Assembly: GCF_000058485.1 (NCBI RefSeq)
Contig: NC_008278.1
Span: 2,970,962 to 3,034,961 of the forward strand
Origin: Frankia alni ACN14a
GTDB lineage: Bacteria; Actinomycetota; Actinomycetes; Frankiales; Frankiaceae
Length of the DNA: 64,000 nucleotides
Direction of reading: 5' to 3'
The position numbers and the translations under genes are program-made. Of this stretch, positions 11,241-45,212 are shown in pieces. Under the pieces are notes generated by a model. It had not been told where the DNA came from, did not search any database, and worked only from the letters and a program-made list of their open reading frames with translations. Position 1 is the first letter of the stretch, and every line of letters starts with the position of its first letter.

Positions 11241-12848
11241 CTACAACATCGCTGTAAGGGGTCGGGTGGTGGCCCTCCCGGGCTGGCGACCCCCATTCGG
11301 ACCGGACGGCAGGCGTGCCCCGCTGTCATCGGCGGACTCCAGCTCGACCGGCCCCCCGCGGCGCGCGAACGCCAGCAACAACGCGTCGGCGTTGTCGGGG
11401 CTGCGCCCGGTGCGTTTCCGGAGCTCCTCCTTGGACTCGATGACGATCCGGTCCCCAGCGCCCTCCCGCCAGATGGGGTCCAGCAGTTGCGCGGTCGTGT
11501 CGTCAGCGTTCTCCATCACGGACAGGTCCCACCCCCCCTGCTCGGAGAGCAGACGGCCGACGCCCCACCACAGCTCCGCCCGCATGTTCAGGTACTTCTC
11601 CGGCTCACGGGACTTGGCGCCGAACCGGATCGGGTTGACCGCGACCCCGCGCACCTTGTGCTGTTTCAGCCAGCCCCGCAGCGCCGCGGCGATGCCCCAC
11701 CCAGGCCCTCCCGCGTCGATGTTGACGGTCTTCGCGCCGGTGATGAGCACTGCCTGCCCGATCAGCTTCACTGCCTGCTCCGGCTCGGGGGTCCGGGCCT
11801 GCCACTCTCGGCCGGCCTGCACGCCGCGGCGTTCCCGCACGACGGTCCAGTCGCGCCCTTCGCCGACGTCGACACCCAGACACACCGGCCGCAGCTTCGA
11901 CGCGGGCCAGGGCTCATCTCGGCCGATGCGGCGCTTGGCGACATCGGACGCTTTGATCACCTTCCAGGCGACGTCCTTCGGGAACTGCGCGAGGACCTTG
12001 GAGATGTAGACCGGGTTGTCCTCGCCCCACTCCCGCCGTTTCTCCTCGGCCCACGCGCGAGACAGCAGGGCCTGCCGCAGGTCATCCGGGATCTGCTCCC
12101 CGGTGAACGCCGGGGTCTCCGCGGCCGGAATGGTGATCACATGCCAGGACGGCAGCTCGCAGACCTGCGCGAAGTAGCTGGTCGGGTCGTCGGGATTGCC
12201 GATGGCCAGGATCCGCGCGTTCTCGTTCGTCGCGATCGAGTCCGCGGCGATCCACAGCTGCTGGGGGATACCGCCGGCCTCGTCCAGCACGACCAGCGGG
12301 TACTGAGCATGGATGCCCTGGAAGCCCCCTTCGTCATGATCGGCCGGTTTGCGGCCGAAGGCGACCAGGTCGTCATCGATGAGCCATTCGGTCTGGTTCA
12401 CCCGGCCCAGCGGAGGGTTCATCAGCCGGGACAGGCGGCGGATCTCCCGCCACAGGATCGCCCGAACCTGCGGGAACGTCGGTGCCGTCGTGATCGCGAA
12501 GGCGCTGCCCGGGGGGTGGGTGTCCAGCCAGTGCGCGACCGCGGCCGCGGCCACGAAGCTCTTGCCGGCGTCGTGGCAGGACGGCACCGCAACCTTGCGG
12601 TGGACCCGCAATGCGTTGATGATCTCCTGCTGTTTCGACCACAGGTGGACTCCGCCCAGGCGGTCCCTGGCCCAGCGCACCGGCTCATCCCGGTAGAAGC
12701 CCATCCGGTTTCGGCGGGTCTGCTCCTCCACCCGGCTGCGGGCCAGCCGGGCAGCTTCGTGGCGTGCTCGGCTGTGGAGTTCAGGGGGCAGGCGGGCCAG
12801 CAGGACGTCGACCTGCCGGGCCAGGTCCTGCCCGCCACCGGCGATCAC
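11241..12848 (-). CDS. phage terminase large subunit
   Basis: The 535-aa protein has an ATPase domain with a Walker A variant PSCHDAGKS (residues of about 89-97) and Walker B LVVLDEAGG (about 185-193), then an RNase H-type nuclease domain with GVDVGEGRDWT, NIDAGGPGWG and a terminal SPDNADALLLA. It would cut and pump DNA into a prohead. I start it at a GTG at 12848, because the longer frame runs antisense through the divergent ParB-like gene. No portal or capsid gene is visible beside it. Confidence 0.85.
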   Translation of the reverse strand: MIAGGGQDLARQVDVLLARLPPELHSRARHEAARLARSRVEEQTRRNRMGFYRDEPVRWARDRLGGVHLWSKQQEIINALRVHRKVAVPSCHDAGKSFVAAAAVAHWLDTHPPGSAFAITTAPTFPQVRAILWREIRRLSRLMNPPLGRVNQTEWLIDDDLVAFGRKPADHDEGGFQGIHAQYPLVVLDEAGGIPQQLWIAADSIATNENARILAIGNPDDPTSYFAQVCELPSWHVITIPAAETPAFTGEQIPDDLRQALLSRAWAEEKRREWGEDNPVYISKVLAQFPKDVAWKVIKASDVAKRRIGRDEPWPASKLRPVCLGVDVGEGRDWTVVRERRGVQAGREWQARTPEPEQAVKLIGQAVLITGAKTVNIDAGGPGWGIAAALRGWLKQHKVRGVAVNPIRFGAKSREPEKYLNMRAELWWGVGRLLSEQGGWDLSVMENADDTTAQLLDPIWREGAGDRIVIESKEELRKRTGRSPDNADALLLAFARRGGPVELESADDSGARLPSGPNGGRQPGRATTRPLTAML

Positions 12849-12905
12849 CCCTCCACCCCATCCATAGGGGTGATTGTCTAGGGGAAAGCGGTAGAGGATA
12901 GGGGT
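12849..12905. promoter_or_regulatory. divergent promoter region between terminase and ParB-like gene
   Basis: Only 57 bases separate the two divergent starts. They contain repeated GGGG(T/A) words, including GGGGTA directly before the ATG at 12906, of the same kind found in clusters in the regulatory half of the element. This suggests shared control of packaging and modification genes. Confidence 0.4.
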
Positions 12906-13619
12906 ATGGCAGCGCGCGAGGTGCAGTACGTGCGGGTTCGTGATGTAGTGCCCGCGATCCGCAACGCAAAAAATCATGACCTGCTGCGGATCAGCGGACT
13001 GATCCGTCGCTTCGGCTTCGTGGAGAGCGTTGTCCGTGACGGGCGCACCGGCAGGCTGGTGGCCGGCCACGGCCGGCTGGAAGCCCTGCTCACGATGGAG
13101 CAGGACGGGCAGTCACCCCCGGAAGGCATCGCCGTCGACGAGGACAGCGCGTGGCTGCTGCCGGTCAGCGTCGGCTGGGCATCGCGTTCCGATGGGGACG
13201 CGGAGGCGCTGGGGGCCGCGCTCAACCGAGCGCCGGAGCTGGGGGGCTGGGACCACACCCAACTGGCCAGCATCCTGGCCGAGATCGACGACGCCGATCC
13301 CGACCTGCGAGCTCTGATCGGCTGGGATGACCGGCAGTTGACCAACCTGCTGACCCTGCTGGACCCCGACAACTGGGATCCACCGGCACCAGCCGCACCC
13401 CCCGGCCCCCACCTTCAGCCCGCCGCGGCGGGCCGGACAGGCAGCGCGCCCGACGCTGGCGCCGGCGCCGGCGCCCCGCAGGACCTGATGCCGCGCATCG
13501 AGCTGACCGTGTCCAGCGACGTGTTCGAGGCCTGGCATGCCCTGCTGTCCAGCTACCCGGGGCGTTCGGACACGGACAAACTGATCGCCCATCTTCGTTC
13601 CACCGGCCACCTCACATGA
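12906..13619 (+). CDS. ParB/sulfiredoxin-like domain protein A (first gene of the 7-deazaguanine module)
   Basis: The protein is 237 aa. Residues 1-120 form a ParB-like domain with the signature GRLVAGHGRLEAL (the ParB R-box-like GHGR region) after VESVVRDGRT. A Pro/Ala-rich linker and a short C-terminal helical domain (VFEAWHALLSSYPGRSDTDK) follow. Such ParB-like genes recur beside terminases and base-modification enzymes in actinophages; the domain can be a nuclease or a nucleotide-driven DNA clamp. It is closely similar to the protein at 16759-17508. Its stop overlaps the ATG of the dpdA-like gene. Confidence 0.8.
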   Translation: MAAREVQYVRVRDVVPAIRNAKNHDLLRISGLIRRFGFVESVVRDGRTGRLVAGHGRLEALLTMEQDGQSPPEGIAVDEDSAWLLPVSVGWASRSDGDAEALGAALNRAPELGGWDHTQLASILAEIDDADPDLRALIGWDDRQLTNLLTLLDPDNWDPPAPAAPPGPHLQPAAAGRTGSAPDAGAGAGAPQDLMPRIELTVSSDVFEAWHALLSSYPGRSDTDKLIAHLRSTGHLT

Positions 13620-14614
13620 GGCACCCCGACTCGACCACCCCCGGGGGGCCGCCCACCATGAATCTGCTGTGGTCCTACGTGTATGCCCGCACCCTGGATT
13701 TGGATATCTTCCTGGGTGGTCTGCCCGTACCCCGGCTGAGATTCTTCGCCGACTCCGGCGCGCACAGCGCACGCACGCTGGGACTGGACATCAGCGTCGA
13801 CGGATATGCCGCGTGGGTCAAACGCTGGTCCCACTGGTTCACCATCTACGCGAACCTGGATGTGATCTGGGCGCCGCGTGCCACCTACGACAACCAGAAG
13901 AGATTGGAAGAGGTCCACGGGCTCCACCCCATGCCCGTCTTCCACACGGGCGAGCCGGTCAGCGTCCTGGAACGCTACCTGAACGAAGGCTACACCTACA
14001 TCGCCCTGGGGAAGCTTCTCGGTAACAGCGTGAAAGTCCTGCGCCCGTGGTTGGACCAGGTTTTCCGCATGGCAGAGGGCACCGCGGTGTTCCACGGGTT
14101 CGGCATGACCGTCTGGCCGTTGCTGCAACGCTACCGGTTCTACTCCGTGGACTCCTCCACCTGGGGTGCCGGCGTGCGCTACGGCCGGGTGAACCTGTTC
14201 CATGACGGCCGGTGGGTGGAGTGTCGGCTGGGCTCGGTGGAATCCGCACGGAAGCATCACCACGTGCTGGAGGCCTACGGGCTGCCTGTGGCCGCTGTCA
14301 GCCGCCGGCACTACGACCCCGAACGGGTGGCCGGGGCCTGCGCGGTAGCGATCTACCGGGCCAGCCAGTGGCTCACCGCACGCCTGGGCCCGGTCGAGTT
14401 GCCTCCTGGCCGGGGCTACCCGCCCCGGCCGGCAGTGGCCCAGCCCGCGCTGGTGTCAGCAGGGGCACCCGGTACGGCCGGGCCGCAGATCTACCTGGCC
14501 GAAGCCTGGCATGAGGCACACCGCCGCCACGCCGCCGGTCTGCATATCTATCTGGCCGACGCATCAGAGTCCTGGACTGGCCGTGCAGCCAAGGGAATAG
14601 GGGCCATGACATGA
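13616..14614 (+). CDS. DpdA-like DNA guanine transglycosylase (TGT superfamily)
   Basis: The 332-aa product keeps the two catalytic aspartates of the tRNA-guanine transglycosylase fold in phage-DpdA style: RFFADSGAHSA (Asp near residue 47, general acid/base position) and YSVDSSTWGAGVRYG (Asp near 179, nucleophile position). An ALGKLLG segment fits the base-recognition loop. DpdA enzymes swap guanine in DNA for a 7-deazaguanine base. It is directly followed by queD, queE and folE homologues, which fixes the interpretation. An internal ATG at 13658 with the true-looking N-terminus MNLLWSYVYA is an alternative start. Confidence 0.78.
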   Translation: MRHPDSTTPGGPPTMNLLWSYVYARTLDLDIFLGGLPVPRLRFFADSGAHSARTLGLDISVDGYAAWVKRWSHWFTIYANLDVIWAPRATYDNQKRLEEVHGLHPMPVFHTGEPVSVLERYLNEGYTYIALGKLLGNSVKVLRPWLDQVFRMAEGTAVFHGFGMTVWPLLQRYRFYSVDSSTWGAGVRYGRVNLFHDGRWVECRLGSVESARKHHHVLEAYGLPVAAVSRRHYDPERVAGACAVAIYRASQWLTARLGPVELPPGRGYPPRPAVAQPALVSAGAPGTAGPQIYLAEAWHEAHRRHAAGLHIYLADASESWTGRAAKGIGAMT

Positions 14615-14994
14615 GGCGAACTGTCGCCGTCGGACCGTTCCCGGTCTTCTTCGGGAACGTCAACACCGCGATGAACCTGCGCGGGCACTATCACACCGGC
14701 TCTGTGACCCTGATCTATGAGTCCACCGGTCCCCACGGCTACCCCTCCTTCAAAGCCACCAACGATGCCATCCGGGAACGCCTGCAACAGCTCACCGAAA
14801 AGATTTTCCGGGATGCCACCAATGAGGACGTGACCGATCGGCTGTTCGCCGCGTTCGACGGATGGTCGGCCCCGCAATGGCAGCAGTGGGGCGGTGACTA
14901 CATCCTGCACGCGGTACACCTGGCCGTGCAAGGCGTGCTGGACAGCATCGGTCACGACGACTCCACCACCATCTACACCACCGCGAGGGATTGA
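14611..14994 (+). CDS. unknown protein embedded in the 7-deazaguanine operon (127 aa)
   Basis: The ATG overlaps the dpdA-like stop, and the gene ends two bases before the queD start, so it is co-translated with the pathway. The sequence (start MRRTVAVGPFPVFFGNVNTA, then RGHYHTGSVTLIYES, later QQWGGDYILHAVHLAVQGVL) has a His-containing beta-like N-terminus and helical C-terminus. No family is recognised. Position argues for a role in synthesis, tailoring or insertion of the deazaguanine base. Confidence 0.6.
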   Translation: MRRTVAVGPFPVFFGNVNTAMNLRGHYHTGSVTLIYESTGPHGYPSFKATNDAIRERLQQLTEKIFRDATNEDVTDRLFAAFDGWSAPQWQQWGGDYILHAVHLAVQGVLDSIGHDDSTTIYTTARD

Positions 14995-14996
14995 CG

Positions 14997-15383
14997 ATGC
15001 CCGCATTTGAGATCAGCAAGACATTTGAGTTCAGCGCCAGCCATCGCCTGTCCGGACTCCCTGCCGACCATAAATGTGCCCGCCTCCACGGTCACAACTA
15101 CACCGTGCGGGTGCAGTTGCGGGGTGAAACGCTGGACCCGGTCGGCTTTCTCCTGGACTACGGGGAGCTCAGCCCGGTCCGCGATTGGATCGACGCCGCA
15201 CTGGATCATCAGCACCTCAACGCCTGCCTGGATTTCAACCCCACCGCAGAGCTGCTGGCCCAGCACCTGGCCGGCACGGTCCGCCAGCTGGTACCGATAC
15301 CCGACGGGGTACGGGTGGCAGTCGGGGTGTCGGAAACCCCGCGCACGTGGGCGTTCTACCGCGAAGCCGAGGCCGCGCAGTGA
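14997..15383 (+). CDS. queD: 6-carboxy-5,6,7,8-tetrahydropterin synthase
   Basis: The 128-aa protein has the QueD/PTPS zinc site (His16 in FSASHRL, His31 and His33 in LHGHNY), the catalytic Cys27 in DHKCARLHGH and the DHQHLN motif with the Asp/His pair near residues 70-71. It converts dihydroneopterin triphosphate to carboxytetrahydropterin, the second step toward 7-deazaguanine. An in-frame TTG six bases upstream is less likely than this ATG. The stop overlaps the GTG of queE. Confidence 0.92.
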   Translation: MPAFEISKTFEFSASHRLSGLPADHKCARLHGHNYTVRVQLRGETLDPVGFLLDYGELSPVRDWIDAALDHQHLNACLDFNPTAELLAQHLAGTVRQLVPIPDGVRVAVGVSETPRTWAFYREAEAAQ

Positions 15384-16132
15384 GCGGCCCCCACCGGCCC
15401 CGCCCCGACCAGGGCGCGCGGGGCGGCGCTGTCCACTTGCCGGTGGCTGAGGTGTTCGGCGCGACGGTGCAGGGTGAGGGGCCGGCAGCCGGCCGGCTGG
15501 CCACCTTCGTGCGTCTGGGCGGCTGCAACCTGTCCTGCTCCTGGTGCGACACCTCGTACACGTGGGACGGGGCCCGGTTCGACCTCCGCACGGAGATCAC
15601 GTCCACCGCGGTGGAGACCATCGCAGCGAAGGTCACCACCGACCTGGTTGTGATCACCGGGGGTGAGCCGCTGCTCCACCAGGAACGGCCGGGTTGGACG
15701 GCGCTACTGCGCACCCTGACCCAGCAGCAGCGCGCCATCCACGTGGAGACCAACGGCACCGTCCGCCCGACCCCGATGTCGCTGCAGCACGTGGCCATGT
15801 GGGTGGTGTCCCCGAAGCTGCGCAACGCCGGCACGCATCGGGGCCGTCAGCGAGCCCGCCTGGCCACAGAGTGGCCGGCCCTGGCCGCCCAGCACGACGG
15901 CCGCGCACACCTGAAGATCGTGTGCGAGGGGGCGGACGACGTCCAGGAAGCCGCGCGGCTGGCCGAACGCTGGGGCTGGCCGGCAGGGCAGGTGTGGGCC
16001 ATGCCGCAAGGGGCCAGCGTGGAACGGCTGGCCCAGACCTGGCCTGCGGTGGTGGAGGCTGCCGCGGCGGCCGGGCTGAACGCCAGCCACAGGCTGCACG
16101 TGCTGGCCTGGGGCCAGCAGAGAGGCCACTGA
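15380..16132 (+). CDS. queE: 7-carboxy-7-deazaguanine synthase (radical SAM)
   Basis: The 250-aa protein shows the QueE core: FGATVQGEGP, the 4Fe-4S motif GCNLSCSWCDT (Cys49, Cys53, Cys56 in CX3CX2C spacing), ITGGEPLLH (about 92-100), ETNGT and SPKL. It rearranges carboxytetrahydropterin to 7-carboxy-7-deazaguanine. The GTG start overlaps the queD stop, so translation is coupled. No queC follows, which affects the predicted end product. Confidence 0.92.
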   Translation: MSGPHRPRPDQGARGGAVHLPVAEVFGATVQGEGPAAGRLATFVRLGGCNLSCSWCDTSYTWDGARFDLRTEITSTAVETIAAKVTTDLVVITGGEPLLHQERPGWTALLRTLTQQQRAIHVETNGTVRPTPMSLQHVAMWVVSPKLRNAGTHRGRQRARLATEWPALAAQHDGRAHLKIVCEGADDVQEAARLAERWGWPAGQVWAMPQGASVERLAQTWPAVVEAAAAAGLNASHRLHVLAWGQQRGH

Positions 16133-16137
16133 CCCCG

Positions 16138-16704
16138 ATGGACACGACGCGGGCCGTGGCCGCGGTGGAGGAACTGCTGGCCGCGCTCGAGGTGAACGAG
16201 GCCGACCACACCGCGGACACCCCCCGGCGGGTGGTCCGTGCCTGGCAGGAAACACTGGCCGGCTACCAGGCCGACCCCCGGCGGCATCTGGCCCGCACCT
16301 TCACCGCGCCGGACGATCCCGGGCTGGTGGTCGTGGCCGGCCTGCACCTGGTCACCACCTGCGCCCACCACCTGCTTCCCATCGTCGGGCGGGCCACGGT
16401 GGCCTACCGCCCTGCCCCGGGCGCGCCGGTGGTGGGGCTGTCGAAACTGTCCCGGGTCGTCGCGGACTACGCCGCGCGCCTGCAGGTGCAGGAACGGCTC
16501 GGCTGGCAGATCGCCTCGGCGGTCCAGGACTGCCTGGCACCGGTCGGGGCCGGCTGCGTCATCACCGCCGTCCACGGCTGCATGACGGTGCGCGGGGTCC
16601 GGCAGCCCACAGCGGTGACCACCACGGCGGTGTGGACCGGCACGTGGACGCCGGAACACCCGGACGTGGAGATGGTCGTCGCGGAGCATCGCGCAGCAGG
16701 GTAA
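16138..16704 (+). CDS. folE: GTP cyclohydrolase I (type IA)
   Basis: The 188-aa product keeps the zinc ligands Cys75 and His78 in TCAHHLLPIVG and Cys148 in HGCMTVRG, plus VVGLSKLSRVVADYAARLQVQERL. It makes dihydroneopterin triphosphate from GTP, the first step feeding QueD. In this setting it is a dedicated supply enzyme for deazaguanine synthesis rather than the cell's folate enzyme. It lies five bases after queE. Confidence 0.92.
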   Translation: MDTTRAVAAVEELLAALEVNEADHTADTPRRVVRAWQETLAGYQADPRRHLARTFTAPDDPGLVVVAGLHLVTTCAHHLLPIVGRATVAYRPAPGAPVVGLSKLSRVVADYAARLQVQERLGWQIASAVQDCLAPVGAGCVITAVHGCMTVRGVRQPTAVTTTAVWTGTWTPEHPDVEMVVAEHRAAG

Positions 16705-16758
16705 CCCTCTACCCCTCACCGCTACCACGGTCACCCCATGGGGTGGATGATGGGGTCC

Positions 16759-17508
16759 ATGGCCGCCCGTGAGCTGGAGTACGTGCGGGTACGGGACGTG
16801 GTCCCGGCTACCCGCAACCCCAAAGAACATGACCTTCCGCGTCTGGTGGACCTGATCCGACGCTTCGGCTTCGTGGAAAGCGTCGTCCGCGACGGGCGGA
16901 CCGGGCGACTGGTCGCCGGCCACGGCCGCCTGGAGGCCCTGGAGGTAATGGAGCGCAGGGACCAGTCACCCCCTGACGGGATCACAGTAGACCAGGACGG
17001 GGCCTGGCTGGTGCCGGTCACGGTCGGCTGGGCCTCCCGCTCCGACGACGACGCTGAGGCGTTGGGGGTAGCCCTCAACGCCGTCCCGGCCCTGGGCGGC
17101 TGGAACTCCGCCACCTTGGCCGAGACGCTGCGAGACATCAATGCGGTCGATCCGGATCTGCGCAGGCTGATCGGCTACGAGGACGCGGAACTGGACGACC
17201 TGCTGGCCGGGCTCCAGGAAGACGGCGGCGGCTGGGACGACGACCCCGCCGAGCAGGCGGCCCCCCGGACCGGCGGGGCCGACCCGACGGACCGCAACCA
17301 GCGGCGCTCCACCAGCCTGGCGGAGCTGGCCGACGGCTACGACGACCAGGCATCCCGGATCATGGTCCTGTCTTGGGAGGGCCCGCGGTACGTGTGGGCT
17401 GTCCAGCAGCTCCGGGAGCTCGGCGAGCAACGTGGGCTGGACAGCAACGCCGACGTGGTCCTGGCGCTCATTGCGGATGCCGTCGGACAGGCCCCGCCGG
17501 ATGCCTGA
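16759..17508 (+). CDS. ParB/sulfiredoxin-like domain protein B (first gene of the TET/JBP module)
   Basis: The 249-aa product matches ParB-like protein A closely through its first 150 residues (AARELEYVRVRDVVPATRNP; GRLVAGHGRLEALEVMERR) and has a diverged tail. I choose the ATG at 16759 because it aligns with the start of paralogue A, although the frame opens at 16738. Short GGGG/CCCC words and a CCCCATGGGG palindrome lie just upstream. It overlaps the dioxygenase gene by eight bases. It may guide, process or protect modified DNA. Confidence 0.8.
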   Translation: MAARELEYVRVRDVVPATRNPKEHDLPRLVDLIRRFGFVESVVRDGRTGRLVAGHGRLEALEVMERRDQSPPDGITVDQDGAWLVPVTVGWASRSDDDAEALGVALNAVPALGGWNSATLAETLRDINAVDPDLRRLIGYEDAELDDLLAGLQEDGGGWDDDPAEQAAPRTGGADPTDRNQRRSTSLAELADGYDDQASRIMVLSWEGPRYVWAVQQLRELGEQRGLDSNADVVLALIADAVGQAPPDA

Positions 17509-18352
17509 CTGGACGGTGGTGCCCGCGCGGCGCCGGCTCAGCCGAGAGCTGGCCGACGACCTCATCGGAACCCGGCCCGCGGCTGCCGAACCAACGATCA
17601 CGGAGGCGACGGTCGCGGTCGACGACGACGGCGCCCCGGTGTTCGCTTACCTGCCGGCCGGTGAACCGCAGGAGGTCATGGCCCTGCGACGCGCGGTGCT
17701 GCGCATCCGCTGTGAGGCCCTGAGTCGGGCCAAAGGGGCCCTGAATATCTCTAGGAACTTCGGTTTCACCCCACGCCGGCCGGTGTACGGGCGGGAAGGC
17801 TGCCAGATCGGCCGGCTCGCTGCCGAAAGCCCCCAGGAGCATCGGGTCCTGGAACGGTGGGCGCTGCTGTTGGAGCGCACGCTCGACCAGATCGACCCGA
17901 GCATCGTGGCTCGCGACGCGCAGACGATGACCCAGGTCGATTCCTCCTGGCGGCTGGGCGGCGGCCGGCTGTGGACGTCCGGGGTCATCAACCGGTCGTC
18001 GGCTCTGCCCTACCACCGGGACCGCTTCAATTTTTCGACGTGGAGCGCGATGCCGGTCCTGCGCCGCGGGATACGCGGCGGCTACCTGGCACTGCCGGAG
18101 TGGGGTGAAGTGATCGCCTGCCGCGACGGGTGGACGCTGTTCTTCGTCGGCCGCCAGCACGTCCACGGGGTCACCCCGATGCGCACTGTGCAGCCCGACG
18201 GCTATCGGTTCAGCGTCGTCTTCTATGCCCTGCGGGGCATGAAGGACTGCCTCAGCGCGGCCGTGGAGACCGCCTACGCACGGCAGCGACGCAGCCAGCG
18301 CGAGCGGGCAATGGCCGCACGGCTCGCCGCGGGACAGCCGATGCTCCCATGA
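17501..18352 (+). CDS. TET/JBP-family 2-oxoglutarate/Fe(II) dioxygenase
   Basis: The 283-aa protein has the iron triad of the TET/JBP fold: His172 and Asp174 in LPYHRDRFNF, and His222 in GRQHVHGVTPM. Arg236 in GYRFSVVFYALRG is placed for 2-oxoglutarate binding. The family oxidises the 5-methyl of thymine or 5-methylcytosine in DNA. Because no DNA methyltransferase is visible and the next genes resemble the hydroxymethyluracil-modifying set, thymine is my preferred substrate. This would make hydroxymethyluracil after replication. The gene is coupled to ParB-like B (overlap 8 bases) and to the next gene (ATGA). Confidence 0.8.
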   Translation: MPDWTVVPARRRLSRELADDLIGTRPAAAEPTITEATVAVDDDGAPVFAYLPAGEPQEVMALRRAVLRIRCEALSRAKGALNISRNFGFTPRRPVYGREGCQIGRLAAESPQEHRVLERWALLLERTLDQIDPSIVARDAQTMTQVDSSWRLGGGRLWTSGVINRSSALPYHRDRFNFSTWSAMPVLRRGIRGGYLALPEWGEVIACRDGWTLFFVGRQHVHGVTPMRTVQPDGYRFSVVFYALRGMKDCLSAAVETAYARQRRSQRERAMAARLAAGQPMLP

Positions 18353-19230
18353 CCCCGACCCCGCACAGCGAACAGATGTTCGGGACCTACTGGCGGTGGC
18401 ACCAGCTGCAGGTGACCACCCGCGACATCGACCCCGTGTACCCCGTGCTGCGGCACGTCATTCGGGCCGCGGGGCTGGACCGCGACCAGGCCGTGTGGCT
18501 GGTCGTCCTGCACGTGGCCTACTACCAGCTGGGCTCGGCGCTGGCTGCGTGGGGCGCGCAGCCGGTACCGGGCGGGCCGCGCCCCGGGCTGCTGACGCTG
18601 CCGACCGGCACCGAACGGCGAGCGCACCGCGACGTCCGCCAGTTCGCCCGCCACTGGGCCGGGCTGTTGGGGGCCTTCGACCGGCACGGCGGCCCGGCCG
18701 GCTGGCTGGACGCCGGCGGCGCGGACTGGCGCCGGCTGAACGAGCACGTCGCCCAGGTGGAGGGCAACGGACGGTGGGCGGCCTACAAGACCGCGGAGCT
18801 GGCGCAGAAGGTCCTCGACGTGCCGACGGTGGTGGCGGACGCCGGGCATGCGCACTCCACCGGGCCGCGGCGGGGCTTGGCGCTGCTCTACCCGCGGCTA
18901 CCCGCGGGGAACAGGCCGGTCGACATCCAGGTGCTGGACCGGTATACCCGCAGGCTCGCCCGCCGGCTGGGCGAGGCGGACATCGGCCAGGTGGAGACGT
19001 CGCTGTGCGATCTCCACAGCCTGACCCGTGGCCACTACTACCTGGGCCACGACATCGACGCCATGCAGCAGCAGCTCACCCGCGTGCCGTCCGACCTGAC
19101 GGCGGCGGCGTTCGCCGCGCGGGCGGCCCGGCTGCCGGCGGCCTACCTGGGGGAACGGGGCGGCTGGTCGGGGGTGGATCGGGAGAGGAAACGGGTCTAT
19201 GCCCGGCAGGGGATCATCTGCACGCGGTAG
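18349..19230 (+). CDS. amino acid:DNA transferase-like protein (alpha-glutamyl/putrescinyl-thymine pyrophosphorylase group)
   Basis: The 293-aa helical protein starts with FGTYWRWHQLQ and DIDPVYPVLRHVIR, then WLVVLHVAYYQLGSALAAWG, a pattern I associate with the phage enzymes that displace the phosphate of 5-phosphomethyl-deoxyuridine in DNA with an amino acid. The late region has LCDLHSLTRGHYYLGHDID. Assignment rests on this resemblance and on the flanking dioxygenase and P-loop kinase; a structure-based search would be decisive. Which amino acid is used cannot be read. Confidence 0.6.
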   Translation: MTPTPHSEQMFGTYWRWHQLQVTTRDIDPVYPVLRHVIRAAGLDRDQAVWLVVLHVAYYQLGSALAAWGAQPVPGGPRPGLLTLPTGTERRAHRDVRQFARHWAGLLGAFDRHGGPAGWLDAGGADWRRLNEHVAQVEGNGRWAAYKTAELAQKVLDVPTVVADAGHAHSTGPRRGLALLYPRLPAGNRPVDIQVLDRYTRRLARRLGEADIGQVETSLCDLHSLTRGHYYLGHDIDAMQQQLTRVPSDLTAAAFAARAARLPAAYLGERGGWSGVDRERKRVYARQGIICTR

Positions 19231-19783
19231 GCGGACGCTGCTCTACCTCATCGGGGAACCAGGGGTCGGGAAGAGCACGTTGATGGCCTCCCTTACCGCC
19301 CGGTGGGTGCGGGCCCCGTTGCCGGGCCAGCCGGGACGGGATGCGTTGGCCGACCGGCGCAGCGGCCAGGTGGTGGCGGTGGAGCTGGGACGGCGCCGCC
19401 GGGCGTTCTCCGGCACCGATGCGTTGCCGATGGATGCGGTCGTGGCTGCGGAACGCTACGTCCGATCCGGTCAGGCTGCCCGGGAGACGGCGCTGCTGCT
19501 GGGAGAGGGCGCCCGGCTGGGCTGCGCGCGGTTCCTGGCCGCGGCGGTCGCCGGCGGCTGGACGGTGGAGCTGGTCTACCTGCACGGGACGGAGGTCGCG
19601 GCGCAACGCCGGGCCGGGCGCGCGGCGGGGCAGGATGAGCGATGGGTACGCGGGGCAGCCACCCGGGCCCGCCGCCTGGCCGAGGGCCCGCCGGCGGGGG
19701 TGCTGGTCCACCGGGTGGACGTGGCCGCCGAGGTGACCCTGCCGGACGTGCCGGGGCTGTTCGACGCCGGACTTTGCGCATGA
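19199..19783 (+). CDS. P-loop kinase, probable 5-hydroxymethyluracil DNA kinase
   Basis: The 194-aa protein has a clear Walker A (GEPGVGKST, residues 19-27) after a hydrophobic strand, and lid-like Arg-rich segments later (RRAGRAAGQDERWVRGAATR). Size and context fit the base kinase that phosphorylates hydroxymethyluracil in DNA to activate it for amino-acid transfer. It overlaps the transferase by 32 bases and the next gene by four. The activity is inferred from position. Confidence 0.65.
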   Translation: MPGRGSSARGRRTLLYLIGEPGVGKSTLMASLTARWVRAPLPGQPGRDALADRRSGQVVAVELGRRRRAFSGTDALPMDAVVAAERYVRSGQAARETALLLGEGARLGCARFLAAAVAGGWTVELVYLHGTEVAAQRRAGRAAGQDERWVRGAATRARRLAEGPPAGVLVHRVDVAAEVTLPDVPGLFDAGLCA

Positions 19784-20670
19784 TCCACCTGGAGGGGATG
19801 GGGTGGCTCGGCGCTGTCCTGGCGTTCCGGCTGGACCGGGAAGGTGTTCCGTTCACCTGGCACGACATCGATGCCCCGTACGTCGCGTGGCGGGCCTCGA
19901 CCGGTCTGGTGTACCCGGCCGGCGACGCACGCAGCCAGGCCGGGCTGGCCGGGTGGGGGCAGTGGGCTCGAGACGGCTGGCTGCCGGCCGGAACGGTGGA
20001 ACAGGTGGGCTACGTGTATGCGCACAAGGCACCCCCCCACCAAGGCCGCTATCGCACGGTGCCGCTGGCCCCTGGGGTGACCCTGGCCGATGCCCCGGCG
20101 TTCGCGGTGCACGTGCCCAGGGTGGTTGAGGCGGCGCGGCAGAGGTTCGCCGAGCGACGTCGTGCCGGCCGGCCGGCGGGCGCGGTCACGGTGCAGGCCC
20201 ACGGCAGCACGCGGGCGAGGGCGGTGATGTGGGGATGGTCGGCGCCGGTGCGCCTGGCGTTGCCGGCGCAGGTCGCGGAACTTCCCTACCGGGCGGCGTT
20301 CTACGGGCGGCGAGTACGTCGCCTGGTGTACGCCTACCCGATTCCCGGCAGGGCGCAGTGGTGGTGGGCCGGCTCGGCGCTGGTGCGGCAGACCCGACCG
20401 CGCCGGCTGGACACGGCCCGTCAACTGGCCCGATGGGACGAGGACTGGCAGGCGGTGTGGCCGCAGGTACACGTGATGGAGCGGGCACGGGTGGTGGAGG
20501 GGTGGCGCCCACGGCCAGCGGACGGGGACCAGGCAGGGGTGGTCACCGACGTCGGGCAAGGGGTGGTGACGGTGCCGGCGTTGTGGCACTCCGGGGTGCG
20601 GTGGGCTCCGGGGGTAGTGCGTGAGGTGATGAACGTGCTGGCGGTGTGGGGTGAGGTCATACCCCGATAG
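19780..20670 (+). CDS. FAD-dependent oxidoreductase-like protein (DAO type)
   Basis: The 296-aa product starts with a Rossmann nucleotide-binding loop (HLEGMGWLGAVLAFRLDREG, ending in an acidic residue in HDID) and has a late motif VVTDVGQGVVTVPALWHSG consistent with the second FAD-contacting region. In phages such as M6, an FAD enzyme acts after glycine transfer to yield 5-aminomethyl-deoxyuridine; by position this gene could do that last step. It is the final gene of the coupled series. An alternative is an oxidoreductase for another base adduct. Confidence 0.6.
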   Translation: MIHLEGMGWLGAVLAFRLDREGVPFTWHDIDAPYVAWRASTGLVYPAGDARSQAGLAGWGQWARDGWLPAGTVEQVGYVYAHKAPPHQGRYRTVPLAPGVTLADAPAFAVHVPRVVEAARQRFAERRRAGRPAGAVTVQAHGSTRARAVMWGWSAPVRLALPAQVAELPYRAAFYGRRVRRLVYAYPIPGRAQWWWAGSALVRQTRPRRLDTARQLARWDEDWQAVWPQVHVMERARVVEGWRPRPADGDQAGVVTDVGQGVVTVPALWHSGVRWAPGVVREVMNVLAVWGEVIPR

Positions 20671-28182: not shown

Positions 28183-28626
28183 CTACCGGGCCGGGCCCCT
28201 CTGGCCGTTCGGGGCTTCAGGGTCGACGTGGTCGACGACCAGGTCGGCAAGCTGGCGCACGACCTCATCGAACGCGCCGTCCTCCAACCCGAGCGTGACG
28301 TCGATCTTGTCGGACCAGCGGGCCGGGAACCGGTGGCTGAGCATCCACGCGCCGGCGCGCCAATCTCCGGCCGCCGCGGCGGTCTGAATCTGGCCGGCCC
28401 ATCGCACCTCGGCGGTGGCCTCCGCTCGCGCGGTGTCCTGGGCCAAGGTGGCCCACTTCGTCGCGCGTCCGGCAGCCAGGTCCTCCCGGCCGCGCTGTAG
28501 CCACCGGCGCAGGGTGGCGTCCCCGACACCGGCCAGCGCGGCAGCGGTGGCGTGGAACAGTCCCGCCCGCAGCGCGTCGCAGATCGTTTTCTGCCGGTCG
28601 GGGGTAAGGGTGTCCCGTCGCGCCAT
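28183..28626 (-). CDS. HTH protein, possible terminase small subunit
   Basis: The 147-aa protein has an N-terminal homeodomain-like HTH (AAALAGVGDATLRRWLQRGR) followed by RAEATAEVRWAGQIQTAAAA and GDWRAGAWMLSHRFPARWS, the layout common in small-terminase-like phage proteins. It would recognise the packaging site. It lies about 15 kb from the large subunit, which is unusual, so a different DNA-binding role remains possible. The ATG follows CAGGGACGCG. Confidence 0.6.
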   Translation of the reverse strand: MARRDTLTPDRQKTICDALRAGLFHATAAALAGVGDATLRRWLQRGREDLAAGRATKWATLAQDTARAEATAEVRWAGQIQTAAAAGDWRAGAWMLSHRFPARWSDKIDVTLGLEDGAFDEVVRQLADLVVDHVDPEAPNGQRGPAR

Positions 28627-42250: not shown

Positions 42251-42622
42251 ATGCGACCCCTCTTCATCAGCCCACTCCCATCACCGGACACCCCGCCGCA
42301 GTGCCCCGCTCCCCGCGACACCGGGCGCGCGCGGCACGTCGAAGCCGATTCCGTACCGCCCGGCGGAGATCGCCGCGACCGTCGATCCGTCCTCGGCGGA
42401 CGGGTCACGATCGAGGACCGGTGGTCGACGACCAGTAGCGATCCGGCTGGTGGCACGCGAAAGATCAAAAGTGGGCGCCACGGCCAGGGGCTGCGTTGGC
42501 GTGTCGTCCGCCGGGATCCCAGCGGCCAACGCCGTAGCAGCTCCTTCGCGGACCACACGGACGCATGGATCTTTGCGCACCAGGCCCTGATGGAGGTTGG
42601 CACGTCGGCGGGGGACCGATGA
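42251..42622 (+). CDS. integrase arm-domain-like protein fragment (123 aa)
   Basis: The C-terminal 75 residues (TIEDRWSTTSSDPAGGTRKI, RWRVVRRDPSGQRRSSSF) closely match the first 55 residues of the adjacent integrase (TIEDRWYKIEVEPGTGKRTK, RWRVPYLDPRGQRRSKSF), the arm-type DNA-binding domain. No catalytic domain follows. The ATG has AGGGACGG, and the stop overlaps the integrase ATG, so it is co-translated. It could compete for arm sites, or be a decayed duplicate. Confidence 0.6.
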   Translation: MRPLFISPLPSPDTPPQCPAPRDTGRARHVEADSVPPGGDRRDRRSVLGGRVTIEDRWSTTSSDPAGGTRKIKSGRHGQGLRWRVVRRDPSGQRRSSSFADHTDAWIFAHQALMEVGTSAGDR

Positions 42623-43929
42623 CGATCGAGGACCGCTGGTACAAGATCGAGGTGGAGCCTGGCACCGGCAAGAGGACGAAGGTCAAGACTGAACGGTATG
42701 GCCACGGCAAGCGTTGGCGCGTCCCCTACCTCGATCCGAGAGGCCAGCGTCGCAGCAAGTCGTTCGCACTCCAGGGAGAGGCGAAAGACTTCGAGAAGCA
42801 CAACATCGTCGATCTTGCCCGTGGCATGTGGGTGGATCCCGCAGGGCCGAAAACTCTCTACAAGACTGCCGCGGACAACTGGCTGGCAAGTCGGGACGAT
42901 CTTTCGCCCGGGTCGATGACCGCCTACGCATACCGGCTGCGGCGGGTCATTCTCCCGCGGTGGGGGGACCTCAGCCTGGCCCAGATCACCACCCCGGCGA
43001 TCCGTGAATGGCTGACTGAACTGGCCAAGCAGTACATGCCGTCCTCAATCACCCACCTCTATATCGTTTTCAAATCGATCCTCGCGCAGGCCGTCGCCGA
43101 CAAGCTCATACCTGTATCGCCCTGCAGCACGATCAAGCGTGGCGGCCTGGTCATGGCAGCCATAGCCATGCCGATGCCCGTACTGGCCGCACAGGCGCTT
43201 GTCGACGCGGCCCCCGAACCGGTACGCCTCATGGTCGGCCTGGGCGTTTGGGCCGGCACCCGGCAGGGCGAAGCCTTGGGGCTCACTGCGGATCGGGTCG
43301 ATCTTCTACACCGGAGATTGCGGGTCGAGCGGCAGCGACGTGATCGTCTTGGATCTCCACCTGCTCTCGCCCCAACCAAGAGCAAACCCAGCGACAGAAC
43401 ACTACCGATATCGAACCAACTTGTGGATCTTTGTGACTGGCACCTATCAACCTTTCCGCCGGCGCCCATGGAAGTCGTGGTGTTCCGAGAAAGGGGCCGC
43501 GAAGCGCAAGGAAAACCTGAGATCGTCCGCCCTATCTTCGTGCATCATCACAAGGATGGCGATCGCCTAATGAGCGGCGGAATATGGTCCGACCAATGGC
43601 AGCTCACCTACCGCAAGGCGATCGAGAACCTGCGGGCCGCCGGCGAACCGGAGGCGGATATCGCGGCCGACTACCTGGCGGTAGATCATAAATATCATGA
43701 TCTTCGCCACCTGTTCGCCAGCTCCCTTATCGCTGGAGGAGCCAACGTGCCCGATGTACAAAAAGCGCTCGGGCACGCCACACCCACCATCACGATGCAG
43801 ACCTATGTCCACCTCTGGCCACGATCAGATGATCGTGTCCTCAACGCGCTTCACTCTGTGTGGTCGCCGACGGAGAACTCGGCGCCGGCGGTCGCGCAGA
43901 TGTCCACGCTCCGAACGTCGCGCCGGTGA
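42619..43929 (+). CDS. int: tyrosine-type site-specific integrase
   Basis: The 436-aa protein has an arm-binding domain (1-60), an SAM-like core-binding domain (80-165) and a catalytic domain with Arg215 (GTRQGEAL), Lys near 254 (PTKSKPSDR), HDLRH (His360, Arg363), His386 (LGHATPTI) and the nucleophile Tyr396 (TMQTYVHLW). It integrates and excises the element. It is placed at the right boundary next to the acyl-CoA dehydrogenase gene, whose 3' end is therefore a plausible attachment region. Confidence 0.92.
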   Translation: MTIEDRWYKIEVEPGTGKRTKVKTERYGHGKRWRVPYLDPRGQRRSKSFALQGEAKDFEKHNIVDLARGMWVDPAGPKTLYKTAADNWLASRDDLSPGSMTAYAYRLRRVILPRWGDLSLAQITTPAIREWLTELAKQYMPSSITHLYIVFKSILAQAVADKLIPVSPCSTIKRGGLVMAAIAMPMPVLAAQALVDAAPEPVRLMVGLGVWAGTRQGEALGLTADRVDLLHRRLRVERQRRDRLGSPPALAPTKSKPSDRTLPISNQLVDLCDWHLSTFPPAPMEVVVFRERGREAQGKPEIVRPIFVHHHKDGDRLMSGGIWSDQWQLTYRKAIENLRAAGEPEADIAADYLAVDHKYHDLRHLFASSLIAGGANVPDVQKALGHATPTITMQTYVHLWPRSDDRVLNALHSVWSPTENSAPAVAQMSTLRTSRR

Positions 43930-44063
43930 CGATCACGCCCAGCGGACGCCCAGGCCCGGCAGGGGCCTGGCTTCTGCAGAGCCCCTCCATGTTGCGCGTC
44001 GGCGTGTCTCGGGAGCCAGACCGGCATGTTTGTCCAGGTGGCGGTATCGAGTGCCTGCTGTGA

Positions 44064-45212
44064 TCAGCCTCGGGCGAGGTGGCGGCTGATCACCAGGCGC
44101 TGGATCTGGTTGGTTCCTTCGAAGATTTGCATAATTTTGGCTTCGCGCATGTAGCGCTCGACGGGGTAGTCCTTGGTGTAGCCGGCGCCACCGAAGACCT
44201 GGACGGCGTCCTCGGTGACCTTCATGACGGCGTCGGTGGCGACGAGCTTGGCGATGCTCGCGGCCTTGCCGGCGGGCAGGCCGGCGTCGCGGCGGCGCGC
44301 CGCGGCCAGGGTCGTCGCCCGGGCCGACTCGACGGCGGCGGCCATGTCGGCGAGCAGGAAGCCGAGGCCCTGGTGGTCGATGATCGCCTTGCCGAACGCC
44401 TGGCGCTCCTTGGCGTAGGCGACCGCGTCGTCGAGGGCGCGCTGCGCCAGGCCGACCGCGGCGGCGGCGATGCCGAGCCGGCCGGCGTCCAGGGCCGCCA
44501 GGGCGATCCGCAGGCCGTTGCCCTCCGTGCCGATCAGGCGGTCGGCGGGCACGGGCGCGGCGTCGAAGCCGATCTGGGTCGTGGGCGAGGCGGTCAGGCC
44601 CATCTTGCGCTCGGGCGGGTGGACGTCCATGCCGGCGGTGCCGGCGTCGACGAGGAAGCAGGAGATGCCGCCGGAGCGGTCCTCCGACGTACGGGCGAAC
44701 ACGGTGTAGAAGTCGGCGGCGCCGCCGTGCGTCACCCAGGCCTTCGTCCCGGACAGCCGGTAGCCGCCGTCGGGGTCGGGGCGGGCGGCCGTCGTCATCG
44801 CGGCCGGGTCGGAGCCGGCGTGCGGCTCGGACAGGCAGTAGGCGCCGAGGAGCGTGCCCGACAGCAGCCGGGGCAGCAGGGCGGCGCGCTGGTCGTCGGT
44901 GCCGTGGTAGGCCAGCGGGAAGCAGCTCAGGCTGTGCACGCTCACCCCGACGGCGACCGACGCCGAGCGGTAGGCGATCTCCTCCAGGGCCTGTAGGTAG
45001 ACCTCGTAGGGCTGGCCGCCGCCGCCGAACTCCTCCGGGTAGGGCAGCGCGAGCAGGCCGGCCTCGCCCAGGATCGCGAAGACCTCGCGGGGGAAACGGG
45101 CCTTCGCCTCGTCGTCGACGACGCGGGGCTCGATCTCCTTCTCGCCGATGGTGCGGACGAGATCGATCAGCTCGCCGGCCTCGGGGGAGGGAAGTAGGCG
45201 GTCGGCCGGCAT
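44064..45212 (-). CDS. acyl-CoA dehydrogenase
   Basis: The 382-aa flavoprotein has the family's FAD- and substrate-binding motifs (LSEPHAGSDPAAMTT; VTHGGAADFYTVFART) and the C-terminal KIMQIFEGTNQIQRLVISRH, where the Glu in FEGTNQ is the catalytic base. It oxidises acyl-CoA thioesters in fatty- or amino-acid breakdown; the chain length is not predictable. It is the first chromosomal gene to the right of the integrase. A divergent TetR gene likely controls it. Confidence 0.92.
   Translation of the reverse strand: MPADRLLPSPEAGELIDLVRTIGEKEIEPRVVDDEAKARFPREVFAILGEAGLLALPYPEEFGGGGQPYEVYLQALEEIAYRSASVAVGVSVHSLSCFPLAYHGTDDQRAALLPRLLSGTLLGAYCLSEPHAGSDPAAMTTAARPDPDGGYRLSGTKAWVTHGGAADFYTVFARTSEDRSGGISCFLVDAGTAGMDVHPPERKMGLTASPTTQIGFDAAPVPADRLIGTEGNGLRIALAALDAGRLGIAAAAVGLAQRALDDAVAYAKERQAFGKAIIDHQGLGFLLADMAAAVESARATTLAAARRRDAGLPAGKAASIAKLVATDAVMKVTEDAVQVFGGAGYTKDYPVERYMREAKIMQIFEGTNQIQRLVISRHLARG

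Follow-up and report, generated by a model that had tools for sequence, protein, structure and literature searches.

A 64,000-nucleotide stretch of the Frankia alni ACN14a genome (contig NC_008278.1, positions 2,970,962 to 3,034,961; the whole stretch is called the window here) carries, at 12906-20670, what we read as the hypermodification operon of a prophage island. Two tandem cassettes, each headed by a ParB-like gene, would alter the phage DNA at guanine (G) and at thymine (T), and we put the probability of this reading at about 0.6. Judged by sequence comparison, the two cassettes are known singly from related phages; what is unusual is the tandem stack, in which each keeps its own ParB. 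In the records searched, systems for G and for T almost always occur singly. If the pair works, hypermodification of G and T can coexist on one genome, which would make a harder target for restriction enzymes.

The operon is a single series of 11 open reading frames (ORFs) on the + strand, each without interruption in the ORF listing of the window. The genes stand in the following order.

12906-13619, + strand: ParB1, ParB-like, first gene of the G cassette (67% amino-acid identity to ParB2 over 169 aligned residues)
13616-14614, + strand: DpdA, DNA guanine transglycosylase family (phrog_887, E 2.9e-47)
14611-14994, + strand: U1, 127 amino acids, T-fold protein at the queC position (homologue of Bipper gp4; AlphaFold model)
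14991-15383, + strand: QueD, 6-carboxytetrahydropterin synthase, start at 14991 or 14997 (PF01242, PTPS, 110.6 bits)
15380-16132, + strand: QueE, 7-carboxy-7-deazaguanine synthase, radical SAM (phrog_2076, E 5.8e-67)
16138-16704, + strand: FolE, GTP cyclohydrolase I (PF01227, 175.8 bits)
16738-17508, + strand: ParB2, ParB-like, first gene of the T cassette, start at 16738 or 16759 (phrog_620, E 8.9e-26)
17501-18352, + strand: TET/JBP-like dioxygenase (PF12851, E 8.8e-6, under the gathering cut-off; invariant residues in a 13-row alignment)
18349-19230, + strand: amino acid:DNA transferase, ADDT (PF18724, 133.9 bits)
19199-19783, + strand: P-loop kinase, putative 5-hydroxymethyluracil DNA kinase (PF18751, 119.2 bits)
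19780-20670, + strand: flavoprotein-fold enzyme, D-amino-acid/glycine-oxidase fold (AlphaFold model, structural matches)

A preliminary description of this DNA had placed dpdA, queD, queE, folE, TET/JBP, transferase, kinase, and FAD genes on one strand within 12906-20670, and all of them are there. Its outer coordinates are right, although 12906 is the start of ParB1 rather than of dpdA. It overlooked both ParB genes as well as U1 between dpdA and queD, and it erred in letting the folE module run directly into TET, since ParB2 stands between the modules. The coupling by four-base overlaps that it described is found at parB1/dpdA, dpdA/U1, queD/queE, TET/ADDT, and kinase/FAD, with a sixth at U1/queD if queD starts at the TTG at 14991. 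The remaining junctions are a gap of 5 bases (queE-folE), a gap of 33 or 54 (folE-parB2), and overlaps of 8 (parB2/TET) and 32 (ADDT/kinase); all these sizes depend on gene starts chosen from start lists, which are choices and unmeasured. Profile searches against Pfam and PHROGs, with ten operon proteins each (ParB1 left out), upheld the proposed families, that of the FAD gene following from the fold of its AlphaFold model. In NCBIfam, QueD and QueE found support below cut-off and FolE passed that of a single subfamily model; ParB1, DpdA, U1, TET, ADDT, and the flavoprotein had zero matches.

Both cassettes have close counterparts. The dpdA-to-folE order (dpdA, gp4, queD, queE, folE) is that of the Mycobacterium phages Bipper and Typha, whose DpdA is 53-56% and whose U1 50-51% identical to the window's. 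The Bipper record has no QueC match, and likewise the genome of the window. Unlike the window, Bipper has a small gene before dpdA, and its DNA-binding gene 1 is 29% identical to ParB1 over part of the protein. The Bipper cassette has no second one beside it; it shares its strand with the terminase, folE being one gene short of that gene, and the Bipper record holds no ADDT. The second cassette recurs in Rhodococcus phage Tonitrus and Gordonia phage CaiB, where ParB, TET, ADDT, kinase, and FAD genes are ordered as in the window and the last four are 45-55% identical, whereas ParB is merely 28-32% identical. Neither record contains a phrog_887 DpdA, and Tonitrus has extra small genes within its cassette, unlike the window. 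In Phelemich, CaiB, and Tonitrus, the ParB/TET/ADDT genes and a kinase match lie upstream of the terminase in the leftmost part of the genome; the window's flavoprotein matches CaiB and Tonitrus, not Phelemich. Two members of Sourvirus, Sour with a G cassette and CaiB with a T cassette, each hold their cassette between ParB and terminase, so the cassettes act as alternatives for one slot, whereas the window has both. Sour's G cassette carries QueC where the window's carries U1. A ParB-like gene also leads the QueC-type G cassettes of Gordonia phage Sour and Rhodococcus phage Finch.

To gauge how rare the pair is, relative loci, each reaching no further than about 10-12 kb from its match, were gathered from three sources: phage records, IMG/VR, and a single pattern-based scan across 84,980 species genomes. 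Among 104 loci outside the window (tblastn of window proteins, E 1e-4), ADDT was found in 72, DpdA in 32, and both in none; some loci are redundant, L017, L085, and L091 being copies or near copies of L001, L083, and L090, and L073 a close relative of L002. ADDT (PF18724) was matched in 0/31 whole DpdA records, a search in which PF18724 was silent also in the control genomes and the positive control was the window's own genome. Conversely, phrog_887 DpdA appeared in one of 80 whole ADDT records (1/50 and 0/30); it was silent in all of the 30-record set, for which the window's DpdA was the positive control. DpdA types beyond phrog_887 could escape this search, in which many of the IMG/VR entries were fragmentary. 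The 80 records hold 14 of the 19 ADDT-matching phage records, the other five being second deposits or close copies by name. The pattern-based scan yielded one DpdA relative, in Gordonia asplenii, and a first viral-contig scan with the window's DpdA gave no relative; relatives came once alignments were used. Within the order of the host, ADDT was found in its own genome only (1/35). On plasmids, a single record matched TET (Prescottella equi, 92 kb), and DpdA matches were partial only, below 35% identity. Among the matches listed by a literature search, judged by title and start of abstract, none concerned both modifications in one element; key Nucleic Acids Research papers lay outside that search. 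The one ADDT record with a DpdA match is an IMG/VR viral contig (L037, 354-5495), in which a DpdA-like gene lies upstream of ParB-like, TET, and ADDT genes; these are followed by an acetyltransferase-like gene and a FAD-like gene, both labelled by eye, and by a kinase gene. Its DpdA is distant (phrog_887, E 2.1e-10), and QueD, QueE, FolE, and U1 are unmatched on the 10.9-kb fragment. The combination, put forward earlier as undescribed, is thus very rare as far as these sequence searches reach, and not strictly unique.

The two ParB genes bear on how the stack may have arisen. Their first 300 nucleotides are 76% identical, and the 67% protein identity runs from the start; their C-terminal parts diverge. 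They are closer to each other than to any further ParB match (at most 50%). The tandem could have come about by duplication, by gene conversion, or by recombination at the starts of the ParB genes, and the alike starts suggest a route by which cassettes could be swapped or stacked. A related arrangement occurs on another contig, L044 (5355-9850), where two ParB genes flank a phosphoribosyltransferase-like gene (label by eye), followed by TET-ADDT.

In the G cassette, DpdA is 53-63% identical to the proteins of Bipper, Typha, and two IMG/VR relatives and also matches phrog_7068 (E 6.2e-33). D46-S47-G48 (in FADSG) and D179 (in YSVDS) are invariant in a five-row alignment, and we take D46 and D179 to be acidic active-site residues. 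QueE matches TIGR03365 (E 1.3e-26, under its cut-off), and the window's QueD is the sole PTPS match of a profile search of the whole genome. Of the preQ0 pathway set (FolE, QueD, QueE, QueC, and DpdA), all were found except QueC: PF06508 was unmatched anywhere in the 7,497,934-base genome, whereas control genomes were matched in 12/14. preQ0 as the inserted base was rejected on this ground. The two linked modules proposed earlier therefore stand, with the qualification that the G module has U1 instead of queC and preQ0 is not the base to expect.

The 32 DpdA loci divide accordingly, with U1 in 18, QueC in 12, both in none, and neither in 2. In Sour and Finch, queC lies immediately 3' of dpdA, the position of U1 in the window. 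When QueC was searched in 31 whole DpdA records, the 12 clear matches all fell in QueC-type records; one weak partial match (E 3e-4, 53 profile positions, barely above cut-off) lies on a different contig of Gordonia asplenii, which has a U1-type locus. A DpdA tree of 29 rows (30 sequences were given and L080, with 22 residues, dropped out; L017, L085, and L091 were left out) parts U1 (16 rows) from QueC (11 rows) by a single branch with support 94/92, the QueC side being long-branched. The window's DpdA falls on the U1 side, and the tree requires one change between the types.

U1 is left unnamed by Pfam, PHROGs, and NCBIfam; its two Pfam matches (E 0.018 and 0.21) lie far under cut-off. Its AlphaFold model, from 16 sequences, has a mean predicted local distance difference test (pLDDT) of 89.4 and a T-fold. 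The best 50 structural matches (Z 8.8-11.3) are led by PTPS/QueD proteins at Z 10-11 and also include dihydroneopterin aldolase, GTP cyclohydrolase, and QueF-like proteins. As a T-fold protein, U1 was rejected as a QueC under another name. A second QueD was rejected as well: the fold is common to both, but in a weak profile alignment of U1 with QueD, the position of the QueD cysteine before HxH, which we take to be catalytic, holds N or G in 16/16 rows, and the window's U1 contains zero cysteines. In the first strand, where QueD presumably has its third zinc histidine, N16 and N18 of U1 are invariant and a histidine stands between them only in Bipper and Typha, so that none is conserved (matched by eye). 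HxH, N51, E72, H115, and D116 are invariant in the 16 rows.

We infer that FolE, QueD, and QueE would produce 7-carboxy-7-deazaguanine (CDG), which could not reach preQ0 by the known route, since no QueC was found in the genome. U1 would process CDG, with decarboxylation as one option and another change at C7 as a second, or would work with DpdA, and DpdA would exchange G in DNA for the resulting base. A more specific proposal, which we hold tentatively and at somewhat less than even odds, is that the phage is temperate and hypermodified at G and T and that U1 founds a T-fold class replacing QueC, which turns CDG into another base, for example 7-deazaguanine. U1 might instead not modify the base at all; DpdA would insert CDG itself, and U1 would assist, for example as a carrier or as a partner of QueD. 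The N or G in place of the QueD cysteine and the cysteine-free U1 of the window speak for such a helper, but the invariant residues resemble an active site and U1 and QueC exclude each other in DpdA loci, and we consider a helper rather unlikely. A predicted 7-carboxy-7-deazaguanine decarboxylase, DpdL, which would work on CDG in a QueC-less pathway, is said to have been described by Cui and colleagues in 2023. U1 may or may not be DpdL. No title or abstract start in the literature search concerned a CDG decarboxylase in phages. A passage in Hutinet et al. 2019 (PMC6884629) already notes that Bipper is without QueC only and might carry 7-carboxy-7-deazaguanine. U1 offers a testable answer to the Bipper question of 2019, namely which base is inserted by a DpdA phage without QueC.

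FolE, QueD, and QueE could also serve tRNA or a natural product and not DNA. On a Streptomyces longwoodensis plasmid, queD-queE-folE adjoin a non-ribosomal peptide synthetase gene (L137, 5959-9647), perhaps as a deazapurine natural product cluster. In the window, however, the genes follow dpdA in an overlapping run; QueE and FolE are near dpdA in all 18 U1-type loci and QueD in 17, and QueC was not found in the genome. This makes a role outside DNA very improbable.

In the T cassette, the TET-like protein is 30-54% identical to 12 relatives. H172, D174, H222, and R236 (HxD...H...R) are invariant in 13 rows, and we take them to be the iron/2-oxoglutarate residues; the profile gives a weak match in the PDB to the Tet-like dioxygenase 5cg8 (E 0.011). 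ADDT exceeds the PF18724 cut-off of 26.2 bits by far, and a profile from 11 relatives matches the amino acid:DNA transferase 25qc (E 2.1e-14) and the Glycinyltransferase 8z2m (E 1.3e-10) in the PDB. The kinase, whose PF18751 (Ploopntkinase3) cut-off is 27 bits, has the P-loop GEPGVGKST; searched alone against the PDB, it gave weak P-loop matches only. The flavoprotein is unmatched in Pfam, PHROGs, and NCBIfam. The structure search that the preliminary description had suggested for it places its model (mean pLDDT 89.0) in the D-amino-acid/glycine-oxidase fold, with Z 19.7-23.1 over 271-286 residues among the best 50 matches: D-amino acid oxidase (Z 23.1), iminodiacetate oxidase (22.1), glycine oxidase (22.1), and MnmC (20.6).

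Of 50 ADDT records, 16 lack a TET match and 34 have one; thymidylate-synthase family matches occurred in 4 of the former and 0 of the latter. TET was scored within the locus (two of the 34 weak) and thymidylate synthase across whole records. A synthase confined to TET-less records is what would be expected if the modification is built on a uracil ring and TET does the work of a hydroxymethylating synthase. TET enzymes can also oxidise 5-methylcytosine, and cassette 2 might target this base, the second modified base then being C and not T. C5-methyltransferase matches were found in 4 of 32 TET-ADDT records, one of the four below cut-off, but the other 28 have none, including all five named phages (many others are fragments), and the thymidylate-synthase pattern favours the uracil ring. 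We therefore regard a cytosine target as improbable.

For thymine, the TET/JBP-like enzyme would convert the base to 5-hydroxymethyluracil, the kinase would add a phosphate to it, and ADDT would let an amino acid, probably glycine, take the place of the phosphate. The flavoprotein would then trim the amino acid oxidatively, probably to 5-aminomethyluracil. The glycine and the trimming step are suggested by the match of the ADDT profile to Glycinyltransferase and of the flavoprotein fold to glycine oxidase and MnmC. 5-Aminomethyl-deoxyuridine is the likely end product, an inference that leans on work reported for phage PaMx11. Phage DNA changed at both G and T would be expected to resist host restriction.

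Two observations concern TET-like genes elsewhere. PHROG 6059, labelled queuine tRNA-ribosyltransferase, matches the window's TET-like protein at E 1.4e-77, and Phelemich gp2 and LilMcDreamy gp2 share this label, yet match TET; searches that rely on annotation could mistake such loci for 'dual' cassettes. On the Prescottella equi plasmid (L136, 7282-11089), a ParB-like gene is accompanied by a TET-like gene (50% identical), with ADDT, kinase, and flavoprotein unmatched near the latter, and TET may have other partners there.

The operon lies in an element whose integration, claimed earlier, was confirmed by an integrase, 73-bp repeats, and an empty site in two relatives. The features of the island in the window are as follows.

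11241-12863, - strand: terminase large subunit, divergent from the operon, start uncertain with an open frame to 13070 (phrog_2, E 6.7e-27)
28183-28626, - strand: terminase small subunit-like (phrog_4102, E 7.1e-27)
42565-43929, + strand: integrase, right end of the island (phrog_1, E 8.9e-52)
44061-44133, no strand: right attachment-site repeat, 73 bp (98.6% identical copy 110 kb leftward, outside the window)

Of 12 other genomes of the genus, 8 share long matches that start at about 44057-44071, and in the two relatives inspected, the flanks are contiguous and overlap within the repeat. To the left of the window are genes for the major head protein, portal, protease-like protein, adaptor, tail, and tape measure. 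Since these include head, portal, and tail genes, the idea of a phage satellite devoid of head genes was rejected. Five of 14 structural proteins from Phelemich, CaiB, Bipper, Tonitrus, and Kozie match the island (E 1e-4, 28-34% identity), namely the portals of Phelemich, CaiB, and Kozie and gp11 of Phelemich and CaiB; the terminase and capsid queries of this set are unmatched in it.

Several results weigh against a working operon that modifies both bases. The PF12851 match of the TET-like protein scores 25.5 bits, below the Pfam cut-off of 34.9, and 12 of the 16 TET-less ADDT records match neither TET nor thymidylate synthase. Profile searches of the PDB found no solved relative of DpdA and none of the flavoprotein, which drew ubiquitin-activating enzymes only (E at least 0.054). 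For U1, the best Foldseek E-value is only 0.015, and the U1-QueD profile comparison that pairs HxH with HxH has a probability of 0.6% and is non-significant. As a passage in Hutinet et al. 2019 (PMC6884629) has it, Orion carries dpdA, lacks the preQ0 genes, and shows no detectable modification, so a dpdA gene by itself is no proof of modification. Within the island, the portal gene points the opposite way from the other head and tail genes, and the island is interrupted by genes of host-like kind (LanC-like, PCMT, radical SAM, and IGPD). The phage may thus be defective and its operon, though perhaps intact, out of use. The last two features would also fit decaying cargo of a rearranged prophage, with an operon that no longer modifies DNA or only one functional cassette. 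Against such decay, 11/11 ORFs are uninterrupted, the invariant residues of DpdA, TET, and ADDT are retained, and the integrase and both attachment repeats are present; we judge decay to be unlikely and keep to an operon that would modify both bases.

A third copy resembling the attachment site (93%, 72 bp) lies at genome position 2,888,584. It hints at another element in this site, and together with the host-like genes inside it means that the island of about 110 kb may be more than one element. Downstream of the operon, a 31-nucleotide direct repeat occurs in eight copies between 20718 and 28770, near gene starts. Two of the copies overlap promoter-like -10 hexamers, and the repeat may represent a shared promoter plus leader.

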